DNA from: Legionella clemsonensis
GTDB taxonomy: Bacteria; Pseudomonadota; Gammaproteobacteria; Legionellales; Legionellaceae
Assembly (NCBI RefSeq): GCF_002240035.1
Contig: NZ_CP016397.1
Location: 1,948,501 to 2,012,500 of the forward strand
Direction of reading: 5' to 3'
DNA length: 64,000 bases
Part shown: piece by piece, positions 26,680 through 28,753 of the stretch
How the letters are laid out: the number at the start of each line of letters is the position of its first letter
How positions within the stretch are numbered: the first letter of the stretch is position 1
Position numbers and translations under genes: made by a program
The notes under the pieces: model-generated
Told to the model about the DNA's origin: nothing
Database searches by the model: none
Seen by the model: the letters and a program-made list of their open reading frames with translations, nothing else

Positions 26680-27801
26680 CTAAAAATTGCTAAAAATTTC
26701 TTTAAAAAAATCAATAGTAGTATTAACACCAGCACTTATCTGTAGTAAATAAGCATATTCACTATCCCACCAAAGTGCATCATGTGGGCCATAATGATTG
26801 CTAAAGCTGGCAATGTAGATATTGCTCGTAAGCTCATGCCTCTTTGTCTTTAAGACAGTTAAGCCAAAATTACTATACCCGCTATATGAATTCATACTAG
26901 GTAATCTAGACAGTGTAGGCTTCTTTATTGGAAAAGTGTCTTTATTTAAAATGCGAAACCATGCAATTTGGTTTTTCTTACCATTCTTTGGAAACATGAC
27001 AAATTGAATTTCCTCAATAGCATCCTCACTACCATATATAATTTGGCTATCTGGAATGAAGTCAAAATCAAGATCCTTTATATATTTGATATCGCAATCA
27101 GGCTTACTACCTCTTAGAATATTATGGATTGGCCATCTTAAATTCCATAAACTTGAAGGTGGTTTATATTTATTTCTATTGATACATGCACTCTCCAGGC
27201 AGTTGTTGTAACGTGACCAGTAGGACAATTCGAAAAAATTCTTTTTTAAGATTTCAATTGATGACGATATAGGAGAAAAAAAATTACCCAGTTCTAAAAA
27301 CTCTTCATCACTCAAATCCCCTTCAAGAAGACGAAGTTCAATATTAGTTCCATGGGATAGAAAACATAATGCTCTCGATTTTGAATAATCATAACCAATC
27401 CAACAAATATTCTCCTGATTCAATACATAAGGCTTCATTTCCCAAACCCAATGATCGTATAGAGCAGCATGATCTAATGTTGATAAAGGCCCAAAATCGT
27501 ACAAAAATTGCTTGCATCTTAAAAGTGCATTTTTGTACTTAATATAGTAGTAATATGATGCAAAATGGGCCGAACACCAAGCAGACCATTTTTTAAATTG
27601 ATAATGACTTGGTTGTTCATTATACGGAACATCCTCTTCCCTGAGTATAAAATCAGATAAAACTGTCTCATCTGAATTAGGTATCAAAATAACAAAATTT
27701 ACTTTTTCTTGAGCTACTGTAGGTGTTATTTGATGCACTAAATTCATTTCATAATTCCAAGCATATCCAGATTGATAGTTATCAATAATTTTGCAGGACA
27801 A
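26680..27801 (-). CDS. Unknown 373-residue protein in the peptide/oxygenase operon
   Basis: I do not recognise a family. It is rich in Trp, Tyr and Cys, with no signal peptide or membrane segment evident. Segments such as ICWIGYDYSKSRALCFLSHG and DALWWDSEYAYLLQISAG look like beta-rich domain parts. It begins 17 bases after the 2OG-oxygenase stop, so it is probably cotranscribed. The first codon is unresolved: TTG 27801 has no ribosome-binding site, and ATG 27747 (GGAA upstream) is an alternative. By context it could be a second maturation enzyme, a transporter partner or an immunity protein. Confidence 0.6.
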   Translation of the reverse strand: MSCKIIDNYQSGYAWNYEMNLVHQITPTVAQEKVNFVILIPNSDETVLSDFILREEDVPYNEQPSHYQFKKWSAWCSAHFASYYYYIKYKNALLRCKQFLYDFGPLSTLDHAALYDHWVWEMKPYVLNQENICWIGYDYSKSRALCFLSHGTNIELRLLEGDLSDEEFLELGNFFSPISSSIEILKKNFFELSYWSRYNNCLESACINRNKYKPPSSLWNLRWPIHNILRGSKPDCDIKYIKDLDFDFIPDSQIIYGSEDAIEEIQFVMFPKNGKKNQIAWFRILNKDTFPIKKPTLSRLPSMNSYSGYSNFGLTVLKTKRHELTSNIYIASFSNHYGPHDALWWDSEYAYLLQISAGVNTTIDFFKEIFSNF

Positions 27802-27818
27802 ACTAATTTAAATAATTG

Positions 27819-28577
27819 TTAGATTGGATGTTCTTTTTCTGCCTCTTTTGATTCATTTATTTTGTCATTACTCATAAAAAACCCTGTTATCGATGCTCTC
27901 ACATGATTACCGGCTGCATTTTCTACTTTTTTTATACAATGCAGAATATTATTTTTGAAAATAACCAACCTATTAGGTTTCGGTACAATATAATACCCAA
28001 TTCCATCATCAGCATACTTATTTAATGCAGCGCTATTAAGATGGTACCCTACCTTTTTCTTCTTATTACTGATTAACGGCACTTCTGGGTAATCAAAGTC
28101 AAGTTGCGGTGAAGGATTAATCAGTAATTCAGCTCCCCAATTTATGTCCCAATTTGGATGGCAGTAATATACATAGGCACCTGAAATTTTGTACTTACCA
28201 TCTGTATGCCAAGAAAGTCCTGAGCCTCTAGGATATAGATAAGGTCTGGCATAGAAAAAATCCCAATCTCTATCCTTCAAACCAATTAAATGAGAATAAT
28301 CAGAGGATCTTGCAATTAATTCATTTATAAATAAATCAATGGTTGTGTTTGTAGGGTAAATTTGCTCGGTTGTGCAAGCTTCAGGCCTAGGGTGAGAAAT
28401 AGTAACGTTGCCCCATAAAGGAGATCCATCCTCGAGACTAAAAGCGTTTACCCATTTTGAAGAGTGAACAAATTTGAATTTTTCAGTTTGAATAAAATTC
28501 CAAATTTTTTCAAAAGACGTTTGCTCTAGAAAGTCATCAATAACCGCCAGAACTTCATTATTGAAAACTAATTTCAT
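27819..28577 (-). CDS. 2OG-Fe(II) oxygenase
   Basis: A 252-residue double-stranded beta-helix oxygenase. The iron ligands are H124 and D126 (SWHTDG) and H213 (ILHCIKK). R227 in HVRASITGFF is the probable 2-oxoglutarate anchor. Upstream, FFYARPYLYPRGSGLSWHTD has the form of prolyl-4-hydroxylase/PKHD-type enzymes. It probably hydroxylates a peptide or amino-acid side chain. It follows a 21-residue peptide gene on the same strand, separated by a perfect palindrome, which points to the peptide as substrate. No strong ribosome-binding site precedes its ATG. Confidence 0.8.
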   Translation of the reverse strand: MKLVFNNEVLAVIDDFLEQTSFEKIWNFIQTEKFKFVHSSKWVNAFSLEDGSPLWGNVTISHPRPEACTTEQIYPTNTTIDLFINELIARSSDYSHLIGLKDRDWDFFYARPYLYPRGSGLSWHTDGKYKISGAYVYYCHPNWDINWGAELLINPSPQLDFDYPEVPLISNKKKKVGYHLNSAALNKYADDGIGYYIVPKPNRLVIFKNNILHCIKKVENAAGNHVRASITGFFMSNDKINESKEAEKEHPI

Positions 28578-28593
28578 ATCAATATAAAACTAT

Positions 28594-28619
28594 CAAAGGA
28601 GATGCTAGCATCTCCTTTG
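28594..28619 (-). terminator. Perfect 26-base palindrome between peptide gene and oxygenase
   Basis: Bases 28594-28619 are fully self-complementary (arms CAAAGGAGATGCT). It starts 2 bases after the peptide stop codon and is followed on the minus strand by GATAGTTTTATATTG. It would act as a partial terminator or RNA-stabilising hairpin, giving more peptide transcript than enzyme transcript. Confidence 0.6.
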
Positions 28620-28620
28620 T

Positions 28621-28686
28621 TTACCAAGGCATATACTCATCCTTATCTTCATCGGTATCAATTCTATTAGAATAATATACGTTCAT
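28621..28686 (-). CDS. Short peptide gene, 21 aa, candidate RiPP precursor
   Basis: ATG 28686 follows a strong AAGGAGA site (28691-28697), and the frame of 21 codons ends at TAA 28621. The peptide starts MNVYYSNR, has an acidic middle (IDTDEDKDEY) and ends MPW. It has its own promoter-like sequence. The downstream 2OG-Fe(II) oxygenase suggests that Asp, Asn, Pro or another residue is modified. No family is recognised, and being so short, it rests on ribosome-binding site, promoter and context rather than on conservation. Confidence 0.6.
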   Translation of the reverse strand: MNVYYSNRIDTDEDKDEYMPW

Positions 28687-28724
28687 AACATCTCCTTATT
28701 AATATCCTTGAATTACAGATTCGG

Positions 28725-28753
28725 ATTATAGTTTTATTATTTTCCCAAAACAA
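28725..28753 (-). promoter_or_regulatory. Sigma-70 promoter for the peptide operon
   Basis: On the minus strand TTGTTT (28748-28753) is 17 bases from TATAAT (28725-28730). The predicted start lies about 32 bases before the peptide ribosome-binding site. Confidence 0.6.

Follow-up and report, generated by a model that had tools for sequence, protein, structure and literature searches.

A candidate operon for a ribosomally synthesized and post-translationally modified peptide on conjugative elements of Legionella

A three-gene operon in Legionella clemsonensis

A 64,000-nt stretch of the 3.27-Mb, single-contig genome of Legionella clemsonensis (contig NZ_CP016397.1, positions 1,948,501 to 2,012,500; hereafter the window, whose coordinates are used throughout) carries a small operon of three genes on its minus strand. 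These are a 21-codon frame encoding the precursor-like peptide MNVYYSNRIDTDEDKDEYMPW (28621-28686, stop included), a gene for a 252-residue 2-oxoglutarate- and Fe(II)-dependent (2OG-Fe(II)) oxygenase (27819-28577), and a third gene whose 355-residue product belongs to no known family (26680-27747). We consider it probable that the three genes form a minimal system for a ribosomally synthesized and post-translationally modified peptide (RiPP), which is carried as cargo on Legionella conjugative elements. The same parts had been pointed out in a preliminary description of the locus; all of them are present, and their association is far beyond chance, as judged from the co-occurrence in 28 of 143 genomes and from the proportions of nonsynonymous (pN) and synonymous (pS) differences given below.

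The peptide gene and its linkage to the oxygenase

The preliminary description had singled out a conserved short frame upstream of oxygenase homologues as the thing to look for, and such a frame was found throughout. Twenty-nine Legionella loci (L001-L029) were collected from the oxygenase alone, with no peptide information in the search; the set includes the window's own genome, and several genomes appear in it twice. In all 29, a frame ending in EDKDEYMPW lies just upstream of the oxygenase gene, and the YMPW ending is followed by five further residues in three of them. The loci hold 13 distinct peptide DNAs. Among these, all 116 pairwise differences in codons 13-21 are synonymous (pS 0.406, pN 0.000), whereas codons 1-12 are near neutral (pS 0.177, pN 0.153). 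Selection acts at the level of the amino acids and is confined to the C-terminus of the peptide.

We also surveyed 143 genomes of the host's family, comprising 33 genera, with a coding pattern for EDKDEYMPW and with the reversed pattern as a control. The pattern occurs at 34 places in 28 genomes from four genera, and the control at none. The 19 distinct peptides found in this way have 20-21 residues up to the Trp; the search pattern itself guarantees that EDKDEYMPW is invariant among them, and we draw no evidence from this. The oxygenase is present in 30 of the 143 genomes, namely the same 28 and two with partial matches (one 26% identical, in G841, and a 33-residue fragment in G845). Similarly, the third protein occurs in 28 genomes, which are 27 of the 28 peptide genomes (G877 is without it) and G845, where it is a fragment. 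At 33 of the 34 places, the peptide gene is followed by an oxygenase gene or a piece of one (29 of the 30 loci viewed directly, the other four by coordinates). The exception is an orphan peptide gene near G009:C1:1990206 (L093, G009:C1:1985000-1996000), which has kept its promoter and ribosome-binding site and is without an oxygenase. Genome G009 carries the full operon elsewhere, and the orphan lies near genes that we take to be transposase-like. The stop codon after Trp21 has become TTA in L016, L018, L019, L070, L072, and L079, which adds LSKEI or LSMEI and leaves the remainder unchanged.

Twenty relatives from named genomes, 80-97% identical in the best segment, are all from Legionella, and the operon has spread between species of this genus. 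Three species (L022, L023, and L026) have identical oxygenase and third-protein sequences, as expected of recent transfer. Among the matches listed from the open-licence literature, we found no description of the operon, and "EYMPW" had no match in that literature.

Expression signals

The peptide gene had been credited with a ribosome-binding site and a promoter of its own. The ribosome-binding site, AAGGAG, is seen at 28692-28697, and many of the listed sequence versions have the same motif (not counted). A -10 hexamer, TATAAT, lies at 28725-28730 and is present in 29 of the 31 distinct versions, 37-42 nt before the ATG; 17 nt before it is a candidate -35 hexamer, TTGTTT (28748-28753), and TTG-type hexamers occur at the same spacing in most of the 31 versions. 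All three signals are on the minus strand. A consensus promoter scan of the window did not list the two promoter hexamers.

Between the peptide and oxygenase genes is a perfect 26-bp palindrome (28594-28619, minus strand), as previously reported, which by folding and terminator scoring would give a terminator-like RNA hairpin (-16 kcal/mol, z -4.5). Of the twelve stretches folded, two represented the wrong strand and were excluded. A hairpin with z ≤ -2.2 is predicted in six of the ten counted (the window, L012, L091, L063, L016, and L017) and no such hairpin in the other four (L024, L022, L021, and L076, whose oxygenases are 80-84% identical). Since it is absent or weak in four of ten loci, the hairpin is lineage-specific and not a defining part of the operon. 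In some members of the family, it may serve to adjust how much peptide is made relative to enzyme. The best match in an Rfam search had an E-value of 0.76, and all matches were below the gathering scores.

The oxygenase and its distant relatives

The oxygenase matches Pfam family PF13640 (E 1.3e-8; 36.1 bits against a cut-off of 27). The iron ligands H124, D126, and H213, which make up an HxD...H facial triad, and R227 are invariant in nine aligned oxygenases from Legionella, Streptomyces, Serratia, and Cupriavidus, in agreement with the earlier statement that all iron ligands are in place. The closest solved structure by profile is 6t8m, annotated as a prolyl 4-hydroxylase (E 6.3e-4). Among 12 distinct full-length DNAs, pS is 0.354 and pN is 0.048.

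Seventeen records in a plasmid collection match the oxygenase, and the surroundings of eight were viewed. By our reading, six of these are RiPP-like and two are not; the oxygenases in the RiPP-like contexts are 28-38% identical to the Legionella enzyme. Serratia liquefaciens plasmid p2-125 (L031) has an upstream peptide gene with three HPRLQAAAPMNLAKVIGGF units and a TP-methylase gene, of which Serratia ureilytica (L030) carries an apparently decayed form. The oxygenase of Streptomyces sp. NBC_01527 (L032) is accompanied by a 56-residue, Cys-containing candidate precursor and a DUF692 protein, and that of a Cupriavidus oxalaticus plasmid (L033) by GTEMSPG repeats and an FkbM protein. In Corynebacterium (L106), the oxygenase gene is beside that for a PqqD-family protein, and in Streptomyces sp. 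3211 (L108), it is near a LanM gene; no precursor was identified at either locus. The locus of G956, which has a distant oxygenase, bears no sign of a RiPP.

L031:3996-7947 is a candidate RiPP cluster of the three-repeat peptide, the TP-methylase (which we presume to be borosin-like), a 308-residue protein, the 2OG oxygenase, and an MFS protein. L033:2681-6696 encodes a 235-residue protein full of GTEMSPG and GTEQSPG repeats, a candidate multi-core precursor, together with an FkbM methyltransferase; two further genes there are oxygenase-like by eye, and one of them has a sub-threshold match to DUF6445. The distant candidate precursors also show a faint Met-Pro theme (MPPN, MSP, PMN), which we have not used as evidence.

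The third protein

The third protein had been described as having 373 residues. That frame exists (27801-26680), and it opens with a TTG start that is probably wrong; the start shared in the alignment of relatives is the ATG at 27747, giving 355 residues. The protein has no Pfam match. When a profile of the family was compared with PDB sequences at E-values up to 10, the only matches were three antibody chains, and none was of the type of CgnB and CgnE, the partner proteins of the crocagin pathway. The structure model is of low confidence (mean predicted local distance difference test score 44.8), and the fold comparison was made on residues 217-355 only.

Relatives 21-27% identical across most of the protein occur in Streptomyces NBC_00525 and NBC_01244 and in haloarchaea, and share KQFLYD and other invariant residues with the Legionella protein. 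Genes for an AsnB-like protein, an aldehyde dehydrogenase, and a PLP aldolase lie nearby, or else a variety of other genes. On two Streptomyces plasmids (L043 and L044), the relative belongs to a gene set common to both, with AsnB-like, MBL-fold, aldehyde dehydrogenase, and GntG-type aldolase genes, and this set may be a biosynthetic cluster.

Genomic setting

An F-type conjugative element makes up the left part of the window. It encodes TraC_F_IV, a coupling protein, ArdA, SRAP, and two integrase-like proteins (PF12834; one of them PF12835 too). Other frames of the element resemble what we take to be SSB, UmuD, and UmuC; the presumed SSB gene and the ArdA gene (PF07275, E 1.7e-38) are at 19879-20873 on the plus strand. 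On one side of the operon are the SRAP/UmuDC genes and on the other a tRNA-Thr(CGT) gene (28995-29067, minus strand; ARAGORN), which it adjoins. The preliminary description had placed it at the end of an integrative and conjugative element, beside the attachment tRNA. The adjacency to the tRNA gene is real; the 23-nt 3' end of this gene is single-copy genome-wide at up to two mismatches, with no duplicated attachment repeat, although such a scan could miss a repeat that is shorter or has diverged further, and the attachment site is therefore only putative. A second palindrome, TGGTACC...GGTACCA (28927-28946), lies near the tRNA gene, is terminator-like on both strands, and may belong to the end of the element.

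Fourteen of 20 Legionella loci have an ArdA homologue 2-5 kb downstream of the oxygenase, and 13 have SSB; three of the six loci without an ArdA homologue (L010, L015, and L025) have short flanks. Genes of the ArdA and SSB type mark the leading region of F-type elements, which enters the recipient first. Given these neighbours, one may reasonably guess, but no more than guess, that the operon acts during establishment of the element or inside the recipient.

Other genes lie around the operon in the relatives. Upstream of it in L011 (2334-5741) is a gene for a 1135-residue protein that matches the PADLOC defence model MkoA (E 2.5e-40), and the operon and defence-like genes occupy the same part of that element; frames in L012, L018, and L019 resemble this protein by eye, the scan itself having covered L011. 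In nine of the 20 loci (L011-L014, L018, L019, L022, L023, and L026, at about 7.9-8.8 kb), a convergent gene for a 277-residue transporter, presumably EamA-like and a possible exporter, lies directly downstream of the third gene; it is absent from the window. Near the operon in L020 (158-2613) and L099 (about 1603-4101, plus strand) are genes that we take to encode an MFS transporter and a peptide-deformylase-like protein.

Interpretation and alternatives

The operon combines a short, gene-encoded precursor that is under selection as a peptide with a candidate modifying enzyme of PF13640, a family that includes known RiPP-modifying enzymes (PMC13097080). The suggestion that this is a RiPP-type operon is thus well supported genetically, by the 29 oxygenase-anchored loci and by the six RiPP-like contexts among eight distant ones; modification of the peptide is a prediction. 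The peptide probably represents a new family of enzyme-modified peptides.

We envisage that the operon would yield the 21-residue precursor and that this would probably outnumber the enzymes, since in this lineage the terminator-like hairpin would pass only part of the transcripts on to the oxygenase gene. The oxygenase would recognize the invariant EDKDEYMPW, reading the acidic block EDKDE and oxidizing within YMPW. One or more residues might be hydroxylated: Pro20, the β-carbons of Tyr18 or Trp21 (as by CgnC in crocagin), or an Asp, with Pro20, Tyr18, and Trp21 being the best candidates. The third protein might present the peptide or perform the following step, and host peptidases might then free a small C-terminal product. 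The location of the constraint, at the C-terminus and not at the N-terminus, is suggestive of a single product that does not vary, the last nine residues serving as recognition sequence and core at once. Because the contexts of distant oxygenases are mixed and the oxygenase tree is indecisive, hydroxylation of the peptide by the oxygenase is likely and not forced by family membership.

Several observations weigh against a RiPP system. The operon's three genes include neither a protease nor an exporter gene, which are common in RiPP clusters if not universal, and its proteins match no leader-binding (RiPP recognition element) family. The usual pattern of a conserved leader and a variable core is inverted, two of the 31 distinct sequence versions run five codons beyond the usual stop, and modification of the peptide is so far a prediction. 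Oxygenases of this kind also occur without any sign of a RiPP: in Streptomyces goshikiensis and S. zaomyceticus (L105 and L107), among cupin, MFS, and RsgA genes; on a phage contig, beside a glycosyltransferase-like gene (L045); and in a transposon-flanked setting (L061). An alphaproteobacterial-looking locus (L104) is likewise not RiPP-like, and the oxygenase tree does not place the Legionella branch relative to the RiPP-linked enzymes. No 2OG oxygenase is annotated near the third-family relatives in the stretches shown from haloarchaea and Streptomyces. The operon is patchy, 115 of the 143 genomes being without the pattern, and at least seven copies of the oxygenase are damaged or cut short (one each in G021, G202, G825, G831, G868, G875, and G877), which implies that the cargo is dispensable in places. 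Finally, the correlation between oxygenase distances and those of the third protein is weak (r = 0.29, 16 loci), and L022, L023, and L026 are placed differently in the two trees, mostly with weak support, so that parts of the operon may recombine.

We considered three other explanations. The amino-acid-level constraint lies at the very C-terminus, adjoining the stop codon, and in this lineage a terminator-like hairpin follows the frame directly; both would suit a regulatory leader peptide whose C-terminus stalls the ribosome, as in TnaC and SecM, and so controls an oxygenase and a third protein that act elsewhere. We regard this as rather unlikely, since the hairpin is missing or weak in four of ten loci, yet the last nine residues are unchanged there; moreover, the stop codon is lost in the two extended versions, the Rfam search found nothing better than the match noted above, and three distant oxygenases stand beside clear candidate precursors. 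Alternatively, the peptide could be a small protein that stays unmodified, for example an inhibitor, a signal, or a subunit of an oxygenase that has another substrate. The lack of a recognition-element match, protease, and exporter would be explained, as would the near-neutral N-terminal half, and we nevertheless think this quite improbable, given the distant oxygenases in RiPP-like contexts and the existence of PF13640 enzymes that hydroxylate RiPPs (PMC13097080).

The third explanation, that the operon belongs to the crocagin family proper and makes its Tyr-Trp tetracycle, seems to us very improbable. A precursor of 21 residues, a C-terminal Trp, a 2OG enzyme, and a partner outside Pfam speak for it (PMC10070186). 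Against it, the peptide ends in Tyr-Met-Pro-Trp and not in Tyr-Trp, and is acidic, whereas the leader of CgnA is reported there to be basic, with basic residues that matter; nor is there a hydrolase or methyltransferase among the three genes, and the third-family profile matched nothing but antibody chains in the PDB sequences.

Returning to the RiPP reading, one extension of it is speculative, and we give it a small chance. The oxygenase and its new-family partner would constitute a new RiPP class, activating Tyr18 and/or Trp21 of the invariant Tyr-Met-Pro-Trp to form a pyrroloindoline-type product or a Tyr-Trp macrocycle, either of which would resemble crocagin through convergence. Such a product may act in the recipient during establishment of the element, possibly on a global regulator such as CsrA; the suggestion of an action there comes from the frequent proximity of the operon to ArdA and SSB genes (14 of 20 loci).

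If the RiPP reading is correct, this would be a very small system, with three genes, a 21-residue precursor, and a partner of an undescribed family. The inversion of the usual conservation pattern would argue for one unchanging product and against an antibiotic that diversifies. That conjugative elements carry the operon through different Legionella species suggests that the element, or the host it newly enters, benefits from the product; this would connect mobile DNA with small molecules derived from peptides, a connection that can be tested.

Comparison with known systems

The L031 cluster of S. liquefaciens resembles the operon in that its oxygenase is 34% identical over 94% of the query and has a (repeat) peptide gene upstream; like the operon, it lies on a conjugative element, here a plasmid with psiA and psiB in the stretch viewed. 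Unlike the operon, it has a TP-methylase, and its 308-residue protein is without similarity to the third family. In the case of corallotide, CorC is a PF13640 2OG oxygenase that hydroxylates a RiPP (PMC13097080), and it thus shares its family with the Legionella enzyme; in contrast to the situation here, CorC acts after a graspetide synthetase and on a large repeat precursor, neither of which is found in the operon.

The nearest published analogue is crocagin (PMC10070186). Its precursor, CgnA, has 21 residues, with the core Ile-Tyr-Trp, and the statement in the preliminary description that the Legionella peptide is much shorter than known precursors was therefore mistaken. The 2OG dioxygenase CgnC causes a mass gain of 16 Da and, acting together with two peptide-binding proteins (CgnB and CgnE, which have an M29 aminopeptidase-like fold and no Pfam match), converts Tyr and Trp into a tetracycle; CsrA is the in vitro target of crocagin A (PMC10070186). 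The two systems differ in that Tyr and Trp are adjacent in the crocagin core and apart in Tyr-Met-Pro-Trp, in the charge of the precursor (acidic here, compared with the basic CgnA leader), and in the partners, crocagin having two homologous ones and the operon a single protein with no detected homology to them. Moreover, the hydrolase CgnD and the N-methyltransferase CgnL have no counterpart among the operon's three genes (PMC10070186). For these reasons, we have not filed the operon under crocagin, and its oxygenase is likened to CgnC by type and not by sequence. What the two have in common is a 21-residue precursor with a C-terminal Trp, an Fe/2OG dioxygenase, a partner outside Pfam, and a very small product, which in the Legionella case is predicted. 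The crocagin precedent implies that a 21-residue precursor, a 2OG enzyme, and a partner can make a workable system (PMC10070186), and by analogy the Legionella operon may work in a similar way.

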